This document shows, piece after piece, positions 5,773 to 29,608 of a stretch of 34,275 bases of DNA. Within the stretch, counting starts at the first letter, position 1, and every line of letters starts with the position of its first letter. The translations under genes were made by a program, and so were the position numbers. The stretch is taken from the NCBI GenBank assembly GCA_035759705.1, contig DASTUJ010000199.1, forward strand, positions 1 through 34,275, read 5' to 3'. The notes beneath the pieces are model-generated. The model saw only the letters and a program-made list of their open reading frames with translations, did not search any database and was not told where the DNA came from. This DNA comes from Actinomycetota bacterium. GTDB taxonomy: Bacteria > Actinomycetota > CADDZG01 > JAHWKV01.

Positions 5773-7232
5773 TGCGCCCGTCGAGGAGAACCATTGCCTT
5801 CACGGCCGCCGCCGTGTTGCTGCCGGCGTCGCTCTTCGGGGTCTTCTCTCTTGGATCCGAAGCCGGCGCAGAAACAGACGGTCACGGCGGACCGCTGGCG
5901 ACTGCAACCGCCCGGGACCTCCTGACCACCGAGACCGTCACCGGGTCCCTGGCCCGGGCCGAAACCAAGACCATCGTGTACGGCGGCACCAGCAGCGGCG
6001 TCGGGGGCCTGCGAATCGCAGCGAGTTCGAAGCCGGAGGTCTGCCCGACGACGGCACCCACCCCGACGGCTTCACCGGCGCCCGGCCCATCTCCTTCGGC
6101 CTCACCGAGTCCCGGCCCTACGCCGTGCGAAACGCCCGAACCGGTCGCTTCGCCGTCTCCCTCCCCGACACCGACTGGCTTGCCGTCCCCCGAGCCGACG
6201 CCAGACCCCTCGCCTTCGCCGAGCTCGAGCCCTTCGCCGGAGCCGTCTCCGACGGCAGCACCGGACCCGGAGCCCCGGCCCGAAGCTCGGGCGCCGGACC
6301 AGGCCGCCGGGCAGACCGACCAAACCTCCGAAGGGCCGGTCGCGGGCGGCCGAACCCCGGACAACGGCGGCACGGCGCCCCAGGGCGATGCAAAGTCCGA
6401 CCCCGAAAACGGCCTGGGAACGCCCCCGGCGCCAACGCTTACCGGGGTGCTGGAGGTTGGCGCCGTCGCCGACCGTGGTTCGGTTCTGTACTTAGCGGAC
6501 ACCGAACCGGTCGTTGCGCTGCTCGCCCCGGAAGCCCTCTTCCGGGACCTCAGCACCGCCTCGTCGGACGGTGACGACATCAGGGCCCTGGAGGAGAACC
6601 TCTCGGCCCTGGGCTACGGGTCGAACCTGACCGTCGACCGGCACTTCGACTCCGCCACCGGTTCGGCGGTGAAGAGGTGGGAGGAAGCCCTCGGGCGGGA
6701 GTCGCCGGACGGAGTCGTTTCGGTCGGAGAGGTCGTCTTCATCGTGGAGCCGGCTGCAGTAATCAGCCGCCGGGCGAGGGTCGGCGACAAGCTGAACGTC
6801 GGCACGCCGGTGCTGACTCTCGGAACCAGGAGCATGGTCGTCACGGCCAAGGTCGACGTAGCGGACAGGTCTAAGTGGTCCCCAGACACGGTGGTCCGGC
6901 TCGACTGGGCCGATCAGCCCGGCACGGGCACCGTGATCGAGGTCGGCAAGGACGAGGTCGACGGACAGGTCGAGGTCACCATTGCCCTCGGAGCCGATGC
7001 GCCGAGCGTTCCGGTGGGCACCGAGGTCGATGCCGAAGCCACGACTGCCGAGCGGGACGGAGTCGTCACAATCCCCGTGTCGGCGGTCTTCGAAGGTCCG
7101 GACGGCCCATCGGTCAGAACCGAAGCCGGCGAGGCGGCCCCGGTGGAGCTCGGGATAGTCTCGGGCGGCCTAGCGGAGATCACCGAAGGCCTGAAGGCTG
7201 GAACCAAAGTGCGGCTGCCGGGTTGGCAGTAA
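5772..7232 (+). CDS. Second peptidoglycan-binding efflux adaptor with long Pro/Ser-rich insert
   Basis: This is a 486-residue adaptor paralogous to the one at 2811-3878. A signal/anchor segment covers about residues 7-28. The beginning of the beta-rich adaptor core is at about 45-80. A low-complexity insert rich in Pro, Ser, Thr and Glu covers about 92-170 and continues as a polar linker to about 222, flanked by Cys91 and Cys119. The core resumes with VLEVGAVADRGSVLY, followed by a peptidoglycan-binding domain (about 268-325, DIRALEENLSALGYG) and the barrel/C-terminal region. The insert falls between the two lipoyl half-motifs, where classical HlyD/MacA proteins carry a coiled-coil hairpin. 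The ATG at 5772 overlaps the permease stop as TGATG. The open frame extends far upstream but only as a shadow of the ATPase and permease genes. No terminator hairpin is evident before the convergent dprA-like gene 17 bases downstream. Confidence 0.88.
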   Translation: MRPSRRTIAFTAAAVLLPASLFGVFSLGSEAGAETDGHGGPLATATARDLLTTETVTGSLARAETKTIVYGGTSSGVGGLRIAASSKPEVCPTTAPTPTASPAPGPSPSASPSPGPTPCETPEPVASPSPSPTPTGLPSPEPTPDPSPSPSSSPSPEPSPTAAPDPEPRPEARAPDQAAGQTDQTSEGPVAGGRTPDNGGTAPQGDAKSDPENGLGTPPAPTLTGVLEVGAVADRGSVLYLADTEPVVALLAPEALFRDLSTASSDGDDIRALEENLSALGYGSNLTVDRHFDSATGSAVKRWEEALGRESPDGVVSVGEVVFIVEPAAVISRRARVGDKLNVGTPVLTLGTRSMVVTAKVDVADRSKWSPDTVVRLDWADQPGTGTVIEVGKDEVDGQVEVTIALGADAPSVPVGTEVDAEATTAERDGVVTIPVSAVFEGPDGPSVRTEAGEAAPVELGIVSGGLAEITEGLKAGTKVRLPGWQ

Positions 7233-7249
7233 GACCAACGGAAACTGTT

Positions 7250-8194
7250 TCAGAAGATCATGCGGAGTTGCTCGTCCTCCTCGGGCGCCCCCTGCGGGCG
7301 GCATACCGAAAGCACGTCCGCCGCCGACCCCACCGCCACCGCGCCCTTTTGCACCAGCTTCGAGTTGCCCGGTCCGGCGCCGGGACCGGTCCAGACCGCT
7401 ACCGGGGCAAAACTGCGCTGAAGCGCCTCCACCGCGCCGGCCCAGGTCCCTCCGGCCCCGTCGTCGGAGGTCACCACCAGCGTCACCTGCGACAGGCCGT
7501 AGACCAGCTTGTTCCTCCCCATGGCGCCGCCGACGCTGAACCCGGCCGACGGAGCGTAGGGCGTAGCCAGGCACAGCCGTCCTGCCTCAATTCCCTCGGC
7601 CACCGAGGGGTCCTTCAACAGACGTTCCAACGAGTCTGCCGGCAGTCCGATAACCCCGCCGTGCGCCTCCAGCGCCGCCCCCATTGCCGTCTGGTCGATG
7701 CCCTTGGCCACCCCGGAGACCACCGGCAGGCCGGCCTCCACCGCTGCCCTCGCGACCACATCGGCCACCTCGCGCGCCTCGCGCCCCACGTTGCGCGACC
7801 CCACTATCCCAACGCCGTCGTCCACCATCAGCGAGGGGTCTCCGGCGACGTGAAGAACCGGGGGGGCGCTGCTCCCGAGGCGCTCTTTCAGCTTCACCGG
7901 GTACCCGTCGTCGAAAATCGACAAGATCCTGATCTGCGACAACTCGAGCCGGTCCCGTGTGGCGGCGAGCTCCTCCGTTCGCTCCAGCAGGGACGCCAGC
8001 CGTTCCGCGTCTGCCAGCCCCAGGCCGGTCATTGACTGGATGCCGGCAACGTCGCAGCCAAGCAGCCGGGACGGGTCATCCACGGTGGCGATCAGATCCC
8101 AGAAGTCCTTGGGGGAAAAGGGCGCTTCAGCCCCTTTCAGCAGCCGGGTGGTCAGCAGGACGGTCGCCAGAGAGCGGTTGCCGGAGCCGCTCAC
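7250..8194 (-). CDS. DprA/Smf-like protein (SLOG superfamily Rossmann fold)
   Basis: This 314-residue protein carries the DprA Rossmann fold. The N-terminal part has an HhH-like stretch (about 50-75, GIQSMTGLGLADAERLASLL). The fold then shows GIVGSR (129-134), VVSGVAKGID (158-167) and GRNKLVYGLSQVTLVV (from 227), corresponding to the GSR, SGxAxGID and RNR-x-I-x-GLS motifs of DprA. The GGTWAGA segment (249-255) resembles a DprA-like subgroup rather than standard competence DprA. No C-terminal winged-helix domain is obvious. DprA binds single-stranded DNA and loads RecA; SLOG relatives can bind nucleotide-derived ligands. Translation starts at a GTG overlapping the TGA of the recQ-PRTase gene by 4 nt, so the two are coupled. 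This partner suggests a joint DNA-processing or defence role rather than uptake; no competence genes are nearby. Confidence 0.85.
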   Translation of the reverse strand: MSGSGNRSLATVLLTTRLLKGAEAPFSPKDFWDLIATVDDPSRLLGCDVAGIQSMTGLGLADAERLASLLERTEELAATRDRLELSQIRILSIFDDGYPVKLKERLGSSAPPVLHVAGDPSLMVDDGVGIVGSRNVGREAREVADVVARAAVEAGLPVVSGVAKGIDQTAMGAALEAHGGVIGLPADSLERLLKDPSVAEGIEAGRLCLATPYAPSAGFSVGGAMGRNKLVYGLSQVTLVVTSDDGAGGTWAGAVEALQRSFAPVAVWTGPGAGPGNSKLVQKGAVAVGSAADVLSVCRPQGAPEEDEQLRMIF

Positions 8195-10260
8195 GATCCG
8201 GCCGCCGCAGCCAGGGCGAAGGGAAAAACCGGCCCGCTTCCGCTTTCCCGCAACTTCACGCCGATCACAGTGAGGGTCCAGCGGCTGTCGAAGACGTCGT
8301 CCACCAGCAGCACCGGGCCCCCGGGCACCTCTCCGGAGACCCGGAACGCATCGGCGACGTTGCGATACTGCTGCGCACTGTTTTGCATCTCCTTTTGTGG
8401 CCGGTTGCCCGCAACCTTCGCAACCACCGGATGGAGCGGAAGTCCGAGGGCGCCGGCCAGCCGTTCGGCGAAGCCGGCGACCAGCGTATCGCGGGTCAAC
8501 GAAGGAACAAAGGTCACCCATTCGGGTGCCGGCCGGGGGCCCCAGGCACGAATCAGCCGCACCGAAGCCTCCACCAGCGCATCGTGAAAGGCGCCGTCCG
8601 AGTACTTGCCTTTGCGAACCAGGCTGCCCCAGCCGCCGTCGCCCCACTCACCGAGAGCTCGGCCGGTTTCGAGCCGCTCCTCGACCCGGATCTTGCCCGA
8701 ACGCAGCCCGGTGCCGGATGGCCACTGCTTGCGGGGCTCGATCTCGAGCGGCCGCTGGCGCAGGTACTCCGCCGCCTCCCGGACCAGATCCGGGTCCACC
8801 TCGACCGAAAGCGACGACCCGGCGCAGTTCATGCAAACGCCGCACGGCCCGGCTTCGGGGTCGTCCAACTGGCGTTCCAGGAACTCCATCAGGCATCCGG
8901 AGTGGTCCCGGTACTCCACCATCACCCTCTGCTCGTTCCGCCGGGCGGCGGTTACCCCGTTGAACCGCTCCAGCGGGTAGGTCCACGGCTGCTCGGTCCG
9001 CCGGTAGCCGCCCTTGACGTACTCCACCGCCCCTTCGACCTCCAGAACCTTCATCATCTGGGTCAACCGGGTCCGCCCGAGGTTCACCTGCGACTCGAAG
9101 TAGCTCAGGCTCACCGGCGCGCCCGCCCGCTCGAGAATCCCGACGACCTCCTCGGCCACCGCCTTGGGCGGGAAGGCGGTTTTGATGAACCAGTCCTGGA
9201 TGTCCCGGTCCTCCTCGCCGGCCAGCAGTACGCCCCACGAGGTCTCCAGGGCGCGCCCGGCCCGGCCCACCTGCTGGTAGTAGGCGATGGGGGAGCCGGG
9301 GGACTGGTAGTGGATGACGAACGAGAGATCCGGCTTGTCGAACCCCATCCCCAGCGCCGATGTGGCGACCACCGCCTTGACCCGGTTCTCCAGCAGGTCC
9401 TGCTCGGTCTGGATGCGATCCGGAGCCTCCCCGTCACCGGAGTAGGACGACGCCGAGATGCCGTGGCGCTGCAGCCAGGCGGTTACCCGGTCGACGTCCC
9501 GGATGGTGAGGCAGTACACGATCCCGGTTCCCGGCAGCTGCTTCAGCGCGCCGACCAGCCAGGCCAGCCGCTGGGCTGCGTCCGGCATGGGGAACACGTG
9601 GAGCCTCAGTCCGCCGCGGGCCAGGCCGCCCCGATGAAGCACGAGAGAGCTGCCCAGCTGGCCGGCGACGTCCTGGACGACCCGGTTGTTCGCGGTGGCG
9701 GTGGTGCCGACAACCGGGATGCCCGCCGGCAGCCGGTTGAGGATGTGCCTCAGGCGAAGGTAGTCCGGGCGGAAGTCGTGGCCCCAGTCGCTGATGCAGT
9801 GGATCTCGTCGATCACCACCAACCCGATCCGGCTGCCGATCACCGGCATCACGTCCTCCTGGAACCGCCGGTTGGCGAAGCGTTCGGGCGCAACCAGCAG
9901 CAGGTCGACCGTGTCTGCGGCGATGGCTGCCTCCACCCGCTCCCACTCGTCGGCGTTGGAGCTGTTGATGGTGTCCGCCCGCACCCCCAGCCGGGAGGCC
10001 ATCGCGATCTGGTTGCGCATGAGCGCCAGCAGGGGGGAGACCAGGATGGTCGGCCCGCCGCCGGCTTCCCGCAGCAGCTTGGTGGTGATGAGGTAGACCG
10101 CGCTCTTGCCCCAGCCGGTGCGCTGCACGACCAGAACCCGGCCCCGGTCCTCGGCCAGAGCCCGGATGGCCTCCAGCTGGCCTTCCCGGAACTCCGCCTG
10201 CGGGCCGGACAGCTCGCGCAGCAGTTCGAGTGCCCGGGTGGCCACCACCGATTCAGTCAT
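8191..10260 (-). CDS. RecQ-family DNA helicase fused to a phosphoribosyltransferase-like domain
   Basis: This is a 689-residue superfamily 2 helicase. Visible motifs are the Q-motif-like FREGQ (24-28), motif I RTGWGKS (47-53), motif II DEIH (151-154), motif III TTAT (186-189) and motif VI QQVGRAGR (329-336). A RecQ zinc site follows, with Cys456, Cys473, Cys476 and Cys479, the same x16-x2-x2 spacing as E. coli RecQ. Instead of an HRDC domain the C-terminus (about 570-689) looks like a type I phosphoribosyltransferase. Its PRPP-loop-like segment VLLVDDVFDSRWTL (650-663) has S-R in place of the usual T-G. The ATG at 10260 is chosen; a TTG at 10317 would add a poor leader overlapping the divergent gene. 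It overlaps the dprA-like gene by 4 nt. It unwinds 3'-5' by family analogy; the role of the fused domain is unknown. Confidence 0.9.
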   Translation of the reverse strand: MTESVVATRALELLRELSGPQAEFREGQLEAIRALAEDRGRVLVVQRTGWGKSAVYLITTKLLREAGGGPTILVSPLLALMRNQIAMASRLGVRADTINSSNADEWERVEAAIAADTVDLLLVAPERFANRRFQEDVMPVIGSRIGLVVIDEIHCISDWGHDFRPDYLRLRHILNRLPAGIPVVGTTATANNRVVQDVAGQLGSSLVLHRGGLARGGLRLHVFPMPDAAQRLAWLVGALKQLPGTGIVYCLTIRDVDRVTAWLQRHGISASSYSGDGEAPDRIQTEQDLLENRVKAVVATSALGMGFDKPDLSFVIHYQSPGSPIAYYQQVGRAGRALETSWGVLLAGEEDRDIQDWFIKTAFPPKAVAEEVVGILERAGAPVSLSYFESQVNLGRTRLTQMMKVLEVEGAVEYVKGGYRRTEQPWTYPLERFNGVTAARRNEQRVMVEYRDHSGCLMEFLERQLDDPEAGPCGVCMNCAGSSLSVEVDPDLVREAAEYLRQRPLEIEPRKQWPSGTGLRSGKIRVEERLETGRALGEWGDGGWGSLVRKGKYSDGAFHDALVEASVRLIRAWGPRPAPEWVTFVPSLTRDTLVAGFAERLAGALGLPLHPVVAKVAGNRPQKEMQNSAQQYRNVADAFRVSGEVPGGPVLLVDDVFDSRWTLTVIGVKLRESGSGPVFPFALAAAAGS

Positions 10261-23063: not shown

Positions 23064-23090
23064 CGCAGGCAACCCGAGAGGATGTACTCA

Positions 23091-25206
<2,116 letters not shown>

Positions 25207-25214
<8 letters not shown>

Positions 25215-27873
25215 CCCGATTTTTGCGACCTACCGGGTTCAGCTGACCCCGGAGTTCGGATTCGACGCGGCGATTGAGATCGTCCCGTACCTGGCCGAGC
25301 TCGGAATAAGCCACCTCTACTGCTCCCCCTATCTCCAGGCGGCCAAGGGCAGCAACCACGGCTACGACGTGGTCGACCCGACTAAGGTCAACCGGGAGCT
25401 GGGCGGCGAGCCGGGCCGGCAGCGATTGGTCGAGGCGCTGAAGAAGAACCGGATGGGGCAGGTCGTCGACATCGTCCCCAACCACATGGCCATCGGCGAC
25501 CGGGCCAACCGCTGGTGGTGGGACGTGCTGGAGAACGGCCGGGCCAGCCGGTACGCCCGGTACTTCGACGTCGACTGGAACCCGCCGGAGGCCAAGCTGC
25601 GCAACCGGGTGCTCATGGCGATCCTGGGCGACCACTACGGCCGGATAGTCGAGGCCGGCGAGGTCCGGGTCGTGCGCGAGGACGCCGAGTTCACCCTGGC
25701 CTACCACGAGCACGCACTCCCGCTGTCGCCGCCCTCGCTGGAGGGGATTCTGGCGTCGGCCGCCAGGCACTGTGAGAACCCCGAGCTCGAGTCCCTGGCC
25801 GCGGCTTTTGGGCGTCTGCCGAAGTCGACCGAGTCCGACGAGGAGCTGGTCCACGAGCGCCTGCGGGACAAGGAGGTTCTAAAAGACCGGCTGCTCAGCC
25901 TGATGGAGGCCGACCACGAGGTGGTCAAGGCCGTCGAAACCGCCCTCGAGGTGCTGAACGGCAACCCCGACGCCCTGGACGAGCTCCTGCAGCGGCAGAA
26001 CTACCGCCTGGCGTACTGGAAGACCGCGGTCCAGGACCTGGACTACCGGCGATTCTTCGACGTCGACACCCTGGTCGGAGTGCGCAACGAAGATCCCGAG
26101 GTGTTCGACGACACCCACCGGCAGATTCTCGGCTGGGTGGAAGCCGGCGAGGTGCAGGGCCTCCGCATCGACCACCCCGACGGCCTCCGGGACCCCGAGG
26201 GGTACCTGCAGCGGCTGTCGGATCGGGCGCCGGGGGCCTGGATAGTGGTCGAGAAGATCCTGGAGCCGGGAGAGCGACTGCCCGAGACCTGGCCGGTGGC
26301 CGGGACCACCGGCTACGACTTCCTCAACCGGCTGACCGGGCTGTTCGTCGACGGGTCGAACGAGCCGGTTCTCACCGCCCTCTACACCGAGCTCACCTCC
26401 GTGTCCGGCGACTGGCGGGAGATGGTCCTGGAGCGCAAACACCAGGTGCTGCGGGAGGTGTTGACCGCCGACCTCACCCGCCTGACCGGGCTGTTCGTGG
26501 AGATCTGCGAGCGCCACCGCCGCTACCGGGACTACACCCGCTACGAGCTCAGCCAGGCGCTGCGTGAGGTGCTGGCGTCCTTCCCGGTCTACCGGACCTA
26601 CATCCGGCCGGGCGACGCGGCGAGCTGGCAGGACCTCAGGCACGTGGTGGAGACGGTGGAGGCGGCGAAGGCCCGGCGGACCGACCTCGACCCGGAGCTG
26701 TTCGGGTTTCTGGAGAGCCTGCTACTGCTGCAGGTCCCGCTCCCGGAGTCCGATGCGCCGGTGCCCCCCGAGATAGAGCTGGTGATGCGGTTCCAGCAGC
26801 TGTCCGGGCCGGTCATGACCAAAGGCGTGGAGGACACCTCCTTTTACAACTACAACCGATTCGTCGCCCTGAACGAGGTCGGCGGGGACCCGGGGCGGTT
26901 CGGCCTGCCGGTCGAAGAGTTCCACGAAGCCTGCCGGCTCGCCCAGGAGTGCTACCCGGCCGGCATGCTGGACACTTCGACCCACGACACCAAGCGGTCG
27001 GAGGACGTGAGGGCCCGGCTGGCGCTGCTGAGCGAGATGCCCGAAGCCTGGGCGGTGGCGGTGCGCAAGTGGATGAGGCACAACGACGACTACCGGTCCG
27101 GGCTGGTGGACCACAACATCGAGTACCTGCTCTACCAGGTGCTGGTCGGGGCCTGGCCGCTCACGAAGGAGCGCGCCGTCGCCTACATCCAGAAGGCGTC
27201 GAAGGAGGCGAAGACCCACACCTCCTGGCTGGCCCCGAACGCCTCCTACGACGACGCGCTGGTGGCTTTTGTCGAGGCACTGTTCGACGACGGGCCGTTC
27301 CAGGAGATGCTGGCGGGGTTCGTGGCTCCGCTCATCGCTCCCGGCCGGGTCAACTCCCTCTCCCAGACCCTCGTCAAGTTGACCGCTCCGGGCGTCCCCG
27401 ACCTCTACCAGGGAACCGAGCTGTGGGACCTCAGCCTGGTAGACCCGGACAACCGCCGTCCGGTGGACTACGGCACGCGCATCGGGCTGCTCCGTGGGCT
27501 CGACGGCATGAAGGTCCAGGACGTGCTCGCCCGGGAGGACGAGGGCCTTCCGAAGCTGTTCCTGATCCGCCGGGCCCTCAGGCTGCGCCGCCAGCTGCCG
27601 GAGGCGTTCGGGGCCGAGGCGAGCTACGAGCCGCTGCCGGCCGGGGGAGCGAAGGCCGCCAACCTGGTGGCGTTCACCCGGTGGGGTGTGGTGGCAACCG
27701 TGGTCCCCCGCCTGGTCCTGGGCGTCCAGGACGGATGGGGAGACACGACCGTCGAGCTGCCGGCGGGCGCATGGAAGAACGTCTTCACCGGTGAAGCCGT
27801 AGCCGGCGGGGCCGTTTCGGTGTCCGACCTGCTGTCAGGCTTCCCGGTGGCGCTTCTGCGGCTCGAGTCTTAA
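25207..27873 (+). CDS. treY: Malto-oligosyltrehalose synthase (TreY)
   Basis: This 888-residue GH13 enzyme isomerises the reducing-end alpha-1,4 linkage of malto-oligosaccharides to alpha,alpha-1,1, giving maltooligosyltrehalose. The opening TYRVQLTPEFGFDAA and YLAELGISHLYCSPYL, then GSNHGYDVVDPTKVNRELGG, are diagnostic for TreY. Likely catalytic residues are Asp322 (LRIDHPDG), Glu349 (VVEKIL) and His593-Asp594 (STHDTKRSED). It is somewhat longer than several characterised TreY proteins (about 770). The GTG start overlaps the end of glgX by 8 nt and the stop is 4 nt from treZ, so the three genes form one operon. Confidence 0.96.
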
Positions 27874-27877
27874 AAAA

Positions 27878-29608
27878 GTGCACACCTTTCGGGTCTGGGC
27901 CCCCAAGCCGGAGCGGGTAGACCTGCTTCTCGGCGACCAGGTGCACCCCATGGTCCCCGGCGACGGCGGCTGGTGGGAGCTGGAGGTGGAGGACGCAGGC
28001 CCCGGCACCCGCTACCGGTTCTCTCTCGACGGGGGGCCCGGCCGTCCGGACCCCCGTTCGGCGTCCCAGCCGGAGGGGATCGACGGCCCGTCGGAGGTGG
28101 TGGACCACGCTGCATTCGAGTGGACGGATCGGTCTTGGCGGGGCATTCCGCTGGCGGGGGCGGTCCTCTACGAGCTGCACGTCGGGACCTTCTCGCCCGA
28201 GGGCACCTTCGCCGGGGCGATCGAGCACCTGGAACACCTGGTCGAGCTCGGCGTCGACGCGGTCGAGCTGCTGCCGGTGGCCGAGTTCTCGGGCAGCCGG
28301 GGTTGGGGTTACGACGGGGTCGACCTGTTCGCCCCCCACCACGCCTACGGGGGGCCCGACGGGCTGAAGGCGCTGGTCGACGCGTGCCACGGCGCCGGGA
28401 TCGGCGTGGTGATGGACGTGGTCTACAACCACCTGGGCCCCGCCGGGAACTACCTGCCCGAGTTCGGGCCCTACTTCTCCGACCGGCACAAGACCAACTG
28501 GGGCGACGCCCTGAACTACGACGGGCCGGACAGCGGCGAGGTTCGCCGGTTTGTCATAGACAACGCCCTTTGTTGGCTACGGGACTACCAAATCGACGGG
28601 CTGCGCCTGGATGCGGTCCACGCCATCGTCGACGACTCCGCCGTCCACCTCCTGGAGCAGATGGCGGCCGAGGTCCGCGCCCTATCCGCCGCCACCCGGA
28701 GGACGCTTTTCCTGGTGGCCGAAAGCGACCTCAACGACCCCAAGTTCGTGCGGCCGGTGGAGGCCGGGGGTTACGGACTCGACGCCTCCTGGGCCGACGA
28801 GTGGCACCATGCGCTGCACGGTGCGCTTACCGGGGAGTGCACCGGCTACTACGAAGATTTCGGGTCGCTGGCGCTGCTGGCGAAGGCCCTGAAACAGGCC
28901 TGGGTTTACGACGGGACCTGGTCGCAGCACCGCCGCCGGGTCCACGGCCGCTCCCCGGCGGGCCTGCCGGGCGACCGCTTTGTCGTGTCGACCCAGAACC
29001 ACGACCAGGTCGGAAACCGTGCGATGGGGGAGCGCAGCGGCGCCCTCATGAACGAGGGCCGCCTGAAGATCGCTGCGGCCCTGCTTCTGACCTCCCCCTT
29101 CGTTCCGCTGCTCTTCCAGGGCGAGGAGTGGGCCGCCGGCACGCCGTTTCAATACTTCACCGATCACCCCGACCCGGATCTGGGGCGGGCGGTCAGTGAA
29201 GGCCGCCGCAGCGAGTTCTCGTCGTTCGGCTGGGAGCCCGAGCAGGTCCCGGACCCGCAGGACCGGGCGACGTTCGAACGTTCCAAGCTCGACTGGAATG
29301 AGATCAAGGACGATCACCGCCGGGTGCTGGAGTGGCACCGGATGCTCATCGAGTTGCGCCGCAGAGTTCGGTCGTTGACCGACCCCCGGCGGGACTCGAT
29401 CGACGTGAGCTTCAACGAGGAAGCCGGCTGGCTCGTGTTTCGGCGTCCCGGCATCGCGGTCGTGCTCAACCTGGGTAAAGGCGTGGTTTCGGTGCCTTTG
29501 GGCGGGCTCGAACGACTCCTGCTGGCCTCCGAGCCGGGGGTGGAGGTCGTCGGGGATCTGGTGACGCTGCCACCCGACACCGTAGGTATTTTTGGACCGG
29601 CTGCTTAG
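27878..29608 (+). CDS. treZ: Malto-oligosyltrehalose trehalohydrolase (TreZ)
   Basis: This 576-residue GH13 enzyme cleaves maltooligosyltrehalose to release trehalose. An N-terminal domain (VWAPKPERVDLLL) is followed by the barrel, with ELHVGTFSPEGTF and GWGYDGVDLFAPHHAYGG characteristic of TreZ. Catalytic candidates are Asp245 (LRLDAVHA), Glu282 (LVAESDLNDP) and His375-Asp376 (TQNHDQVGNR). LFQGEEWAAGTPFQYFTDH is another TreZ mark. The GTG start lies four bases after the treY stop. No OtsA/OtsB or TreS gene is in the window, so trehalose here is drawn from glycogen. The stop codon overlaps the stop of a possible small minus-strand gene by 4 nt. Confidence 0.96.
   Translation: MHTFRVWAPKPERVDLLLGDQVHPMVPGDGGWWELEVEDAGPGTRYRFSLDGGPGRPDPRSASQPEGIDGPSEVVDHAAFEWTDRSWRGIPLAGAVLYELHVGTFSPEGTFAGAIEHLEHLVELGVDAVELLPVAEFSGSRGWGYDGVDLFAPHHAYGGPDGLKALVDACHGAGIGVVMDVVYNHLGPAGNYLPEFGPYFSDRHKTNWGDALNYDGPDSGEVRRFVIDNALCWLRDYQIDGLRLDAVHAIVDDSAVHLLEQMAAEVRALSAATRRTLFLVAESDLNDPKFVRPVEAGGYGLDASWADEWHHALHGALTGECTGYYEDFGSLALLAKALKQAWVYDGTWSQHRRRVHGRSPAGLPGDRFVVSTQNHDQVGNRAMGERSGALMNEGRLKIAAALLLTSPFVPLLFQGEEWAAGTPFQYFTDHPDPDLGRAVSEGRRSEFSSFGWEPEQVPDPQDRATFERSKLDWNEIKDDHRRVLEWHRMLIELRRRVRSLTDPRRDSIDVSFNEEAGWLVFRRPGIAVVLNLGKGVVSVPLGGLERLLLASEPGVEVVGDLVTLPPDTVGIFGPAA

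Follow-up and report, generated by a model that had tools for sequence, protein, structure and literature searches.

What does a RecQ-like helicase that carries a phosphoribosyltransferase (PRTase) domain do beside a DprA-like protein? Such a pair is encoded on the reverse strand of an actinobacterial contig (DASTUJ010000199.1, assembly GCA_035759705.1), of which we analysed a stretch of 34,275 nucleotides, referred to here as the window. The upstream gene (8191..10260) starts with ATG and encodes a protein of 689 amino acids, and the downstream gene (7250..8194) starts with GTG and encodes a DprA-like SLOG protein of 314. For reasons given below, we call them rqlH (psyrT, the toxin) and rqlI (psyrA, the antitoxin). 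The genes overlap by four nucleotides (GTGA, 8191..8194, reverse strand), the TGA stop of rqlH running into the GTG start of rqlI, and from this arrangement we infer that their translation may be coupled, as a previous sequence-only reading had held. The same -4 spacing was present in 28 of 82 relatives.

The predicted helicase has a RecQ core, as that reading had also held, scoring 232 bits against TIGR00614, above the cut-off. Its Walker A motif, TGWGKS, lies at 10102..10119 and its DEIH helicase motif at 9799..9810 (both reverse strand); in the alignment to E. coli RqlH, K52 and D151 of these motifs correspond to K49 and D148. Cysteines C456, C473, C476 and C479 make up a zinc site in the protein sequence (8824..8895, reverse strand), spaced as in E. 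coli RecQ, in agreement with the earlier reading. RqlH does not qualify as a canonical RecQ: it reached 263.9 bits against a curated cut-off of 640.2 for the full-length model (TIGR01389/PRK11057), aligning only over residues 13-366, and a Pfam profile search returned no match to HRDC models. The place of the HRDC domain is taken by a ComF/ShosT-like PRTase domain, residues 495-689 (8194..8778, reverse strand). In Pfam this domain stays below threshold (16.4 bits; cut-off 26.3), but the region gave a profile match to solved structures of PRPP synthetases, HGPRT and PurF. An AlphaFold2 model of these residues, built on an alignment of relatives, had a mean pLDDT of 96. When it was searched against the PDB with Foldseek, ComF ranked top and ComF, APRT and PurF were the best matches, while ShosT (8zvd) had the highest query TM-score (0.54) and the lowest rmsd (2.7 Å) among the matches listed. 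Modelling against ComF, Apt and PurF, the check suggested in the sequence-only reading, thus confirmed the predicted PRTase fold. The PRPP loop, VLLVDDVFDSRWT (8275..8313, reverse strand), contains D655 and D658, which align with E. coli D663 and D666 (PMC4670107). Its sequence had been written correctly in the earlier reading, but the S-R that was taken there as unusual is not, D-S-(R/G)-W-T being the norm of the family. Further upstream in the domain lies K552 (8605..8607, reverse strand), a residue conserved in paired relatives.

The partner, RqlI, scored 109.5 bits against PF02481, above the Pfam cut-off, and carries a GGTWAGA motif (7433..7453, reverse strand) that is near-invariant across the relatives compared, in line with its original description as a DprA variant. 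The best fold matches of its AlphaFold2 model (pLDDT 94.5) were DprA and ShosA. Taken with the PDB matches of the PRTase domain, these show that the folds had been read correctly and that the pair resembles ShosTA plus a helicase. A ComF-like PRTase, a helicase and a DprA also recall comFA-comFC-dprA, and ComF being the best Foldseek match of the PRTase and DprA the fold of the partner, the pair could be imagined as a DNA-uptake module for transformation. We regard this as very improbable. RqlI was rejected as a canonical transformation DprA, since it scored 83.9 bits against the curated TIGR00732 cut-off of 191.15; the genome encodes a canonical DprA of its own, which reaches 237 bits against PF02481; no competence gene was found among the window ORFs scanned; and RqlHI is already known as a toxin-antitoxin pair. 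Separate copies of both RecQ and DprA occur elsewhere in the genome, which suggests that the pair supplements the housekeeping proteins. In the window it is flanked by a MacB-type efflux operon and, on the opposite side, by a glyoxalase-like gene and a protein kinase. The scanned window ORFs contained no other recognised defence gene, so there is no local defence island, a point against a defence role for the pair. Elsewhere in the window, three successive alpha-amylase-family genes (23082-29608) resemble a glycogen/trehalose (GlgX-TreY-TreZ) cluster.

Judged by its sequence, the pair is a new actinobacterial member of the RqlHI/PsyrTA family, an already described toxin-antitoxin system whose toxin is a PRTase; PsyrTA of P. 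syringae and RqlHI of E. coli are one and the same family. PADLOC assigned the helicase to PsyrT (872 bits, residues 8-687) and its partner to PsyrA (267 bits). As the family requires, a RecQ core, a zinc site and a C-terminal PRTase are combined in a single protein, and a DprA-like gene follows on the same strand immediately 3' of rqlH, here with the four-nucleotide overlap. Window RqlH is 47% identical to chromosomal RqlH of E. coli and keeps K49, D148 and D663 (here K52, D151 and D655), which in the reference sequence sit at exactly the published numbers. Two other assignments were rejected: ShosTA, given that the window PRTase is fused to RecQ and RqlI scores only 79.6 bits against the ShosA model, far below PsyrA; and Dpd, the best DpdF score being 305 bits against 872 for PsyrT. 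The earlier suggestion of a dedicated repair or anti-invader unit, distinct from transformation, therefore came close to the truth and missed the toxin-antitoxin identity.

RqlHI/PsyrTA has been known as a toxin-antitoxin pair since 2013-2015 and is on record as an anti-phage defence. In E. coli, deletion of the PRTase or the D663A mutation abolishes the growth inhibition, filamentation and SOS induction caused by RqlH; RqlI neutralises RqlH and co-immunoprecipitates with it; and residues 1-320 of RqlI suffice, the C-terminal HTH being dispensable (PMC4670107). These published genetics, with the PRTase as toxin and the DprA-like protein as antitoxin, contradict the first reading, in which DprA was to load DNA and the PRTase to act as a sensor. 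On this basis we consider it likely that the window genes encode a pair in which a helicase-borne PRTase toxin is restrained by RqlI and released by phage or DNA damage. RqlH would move along DNA, as its M. smegmatis homologue does (PMC4670107), bearing a ComF/ShosT-like PRTase as the toxic part, a toxicity shown in E. coli. The PRTase would most probably consume PRPP and disturb purine nucleotides in the manner of ShosT, or else modify bases while the helicase grips DNA. According to a review (PMC12593503), ShosT combines PRTase with pyrophosphatase activity, upsets purine metabolism and leads to filamentation and duplications in the DNA, and we would prefer ShosT-type chemistry for RqlH because these effects fit the RqlH phenotypes. 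DNA damage, the SOS response and filamentation would then follow from PRTase action. RqlI, presumably made by coupled translation, would bind RqlH and keep the toxin silent, and its DprA fold may bind single-stranded DNA; phage replication or DNA damage would lift this restraint, so that the infected cell stops. Published evidence for anti-phage protection by the family is mixed: a DprA-PRTase pair was protective against T7 and lambda in one test, whereas PsyrTA in one native E. coli host gave no phage protection and caused a growth defect on expression (PMC12409345).

The distribution of the pair bears on a second explanation, in which RqlH and RqlI are a housekeeping DNA-repair pair that acts jointly on damaged or replicating DNA, toxicity being a by-product of the half-system. 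The authors of the E. coli study proposed such a joint DNA function (PMC4670107), and the locus is conserved in two species of the genus: a sister species has the helicase at the same place, with RqlH 82% identical, its RqlI not being visible because the contig ends inside rqlH. Against this stands a patchy occurrence. Of three other genomes of the genus that were examined, two did not yield the pair (one of these is only 81% complete), and although RqlHI pairs were present in all six phyla sampled, their frequency per phylum was about 3-18% of genomes. Pairs also lie on plasmids within restriction and BREX operons, and E. coli lost nothing measurable when both genes were deleted (PMC4670107). 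We therefore hold the repair explanation to be unlikely, even though RqlH proteins without a partner keep their helicase residues (see below), which indicates that the helicase has a use of its own, and we favor the toxin-antitoxin reading.

The settings of individual relatives were varied. In E. coli, the homologous pair occupies a type I restriction operon, between hsdS and hsdR (L095, 4019-7536; L266, 6001-10772), including on a plasmid; in one chromosome an IS3-like element separates the helicase from the PRTase, RqlI still being annotated as intact. A chromosomal E. coli pair is flanked by gntU and yhgN. On an Acinetobacter plasmid, pglX and pglZ of a BREX operon flank the pair (L097, 3992-7521). 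A single actinobacterial genome has two different RqlHI pairs on the same contig, about 21 kb apart (L040 and L055). RqlH of Sinorhizobium pSymB (L099, 3989-6980) lacks cysteines of the zinc site, and the match to its RqlI shifts to another frame near 6820; this copy may be decaying. A divergent paired subfamily (L222, L223 and L094) has the loop DDIYDSG(Y/A) and forms a long branch, two of the three members being on the tree. Phage records gave no match.

A 2015 study reported that RqlH lacks RqlI in 99.6% of Gram-positives, for which it had no explanation (PMC4670107). We surveyed genomes from six phyla and scored RqlI-like ORFs downstream of rqlH with an HMM, calling an RqlH orphan when no RqlI was found in the downstream sequence examined (0.9 kb or more, in many cases 1.5 or 3.5 kb), a definition that does not imply genome-wide absence. 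A further 80 loci were excluded from the counts because they had been selected by the scan pattern DDx[VFS]DSxWT. In total, 64 RqlH were paired and 66 were orphans, 60 of the latter actinobacterial. The paired/orphan counts were 9/60 in Actinomycetota, 8/3 in Pseudomonadota, 17/3 in Chloroflexota, 6/0 in Bacillota, 9/0 in Acidobacteriota and 15/0 in Cyanobacteriota. The orphan state is thus mainly actinobacterial, and the Bacillota, all six of whose sampled RqlH were paired, correct the notion that the pair is missing from Gram-positives. It had been anticipated that frequent separation of the pair would count against a functional unit; separation is the rule in Actinomycetota alone, where 60 of 69 RqlH are orphans, whereas 55 of 61 RqlH in the other five phyla are paired.

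We then compared columns invariant among paired RqlH with those of the orphans. D655 and D658, picked because E. coli mutants alter these residues, were both present in 59 of 62 paired proteins against 28 of 66 orphans. With K552, Q622 and N634, which were chosen post hoc after the first set had been seen, all five PRTase-site residues were intact in 55/59 paired RqlH and in 1/66 orphans; for K552 alone the figures were 58/59 and 2/66. In later sets, K552 was absent from all six determinable new orphans (Pseudomonadota and Chloroflexota). Almost all actinobacterial orphans sampled were without K552, and most lacked other site residues. By contrast, the helicase catalytic residues checked were kept in nearly every orphan, and zinc cysteines C456, C473 and C476 in all 66. 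The key exception is L032, an orphan with all five site residues intact; four paired RqlH (L033, L192, L194 and L251) have one site residue changed, and the pattern-selected set outside the counts held a few further orphans with the site kept (L126 and L170). No cluster of ORFs flanking the orphans, as a candidate replacement partner, covered more than 11 of 62 loci, and the clusters inspected resembled high-GC shadow ORFs. An orphan RqlH on a haloarchaeal plasmid (L098, 3968-6049) has G at D658 and F at K552.

These comparisons of sequences suggest that RqlI can be dispensed with only where the PRTase is disabled. The pattern could also reflect lineage drift, in which the loss of RqlI and the changes in the PRTase of one actinobacterial clade are causally unrelated, and a single clade does contain most orphans. 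On a tree built from helicase columns only, we counted at least six changes in pairing, which the drift explanation can claim as few, and four supported independent contrasts; those for K552 ran in the expected direction in about three and in the opposite direction in none (p = 0.25), and our Fisher tests ignore ancestry. Formal phylogenetic support is therefore weak, because most orphans form one clade. However, K552 has been lost repeatedly, in orphan lineages that are separate from one another (L197/L198, L098/L218 and L028/L031) and in all six new orphans from the Pseudomonadota and Chloroflexota samples, and within the large clade different sub-clades lose different residues while the helicase residues persist. 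Drift is thus possible and in our judgement doubtful. We lean towards the causal account, in which RqlI can be lost only once the RqlH PRTase site is disabled, so that streptomycete, mycobacterial and other orphans would be detoxified helicases and K552 would be essential for toxic activity or for contact with RqlI. After such a loss, with the PRTase site dismantled, RqlH would probably act as a helicase only. If true, this would account for the fact that most Gram-positive RqlH have no antitoxin, offering a testable answer to the 2015 puzzle of a toxic helicase kept without its antitoxin and naming specific candidate residues for PRTase toxicity. The contrast between paired and orphan RqlH in the PRTase site appears to be new, as we found no description of it in the literature searched.

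How does the window pair compare with known systems? ComF and DprA competence proteins share its PRTase and SLOG folds but have no helicase fusion and serve transformation. ShosTA likewise couples a PRTase toxin to a DprA-like antitoxin of similar folds (8zvd and 8zva), although ShosT shares only 10% identity with the window PRTase in the structural match and is not known to have a RecQ helicase. RqlH of Mycobacterium smegmatis, from the same phylum, has the helicase-PRTase architecture and is reported without RqlI, whereas window RqlH has one. PsyrT of PsyrTA (PDLC03928/PDLC03927) aligns over nearly the whole model and PsyrA over 302 of 398 positions, but P. syringae belongs to a different phylum. 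RqlHI of extraintestinal E. coli (PMC4670107) agrees with it in gene order, overlap, RecQ, zinc and PRTase architecture and the residues mutated; its RqlI is 400-431 amino acids long with a C-terminal HTH, while window RqlI has 314 and no HTH. The short form without this tail is shared by the window, other Actinomycetota, Chloroflexota and Verrucomicrobiota, and cyanobacterial and proteobacterial RqlI are mostly longer.
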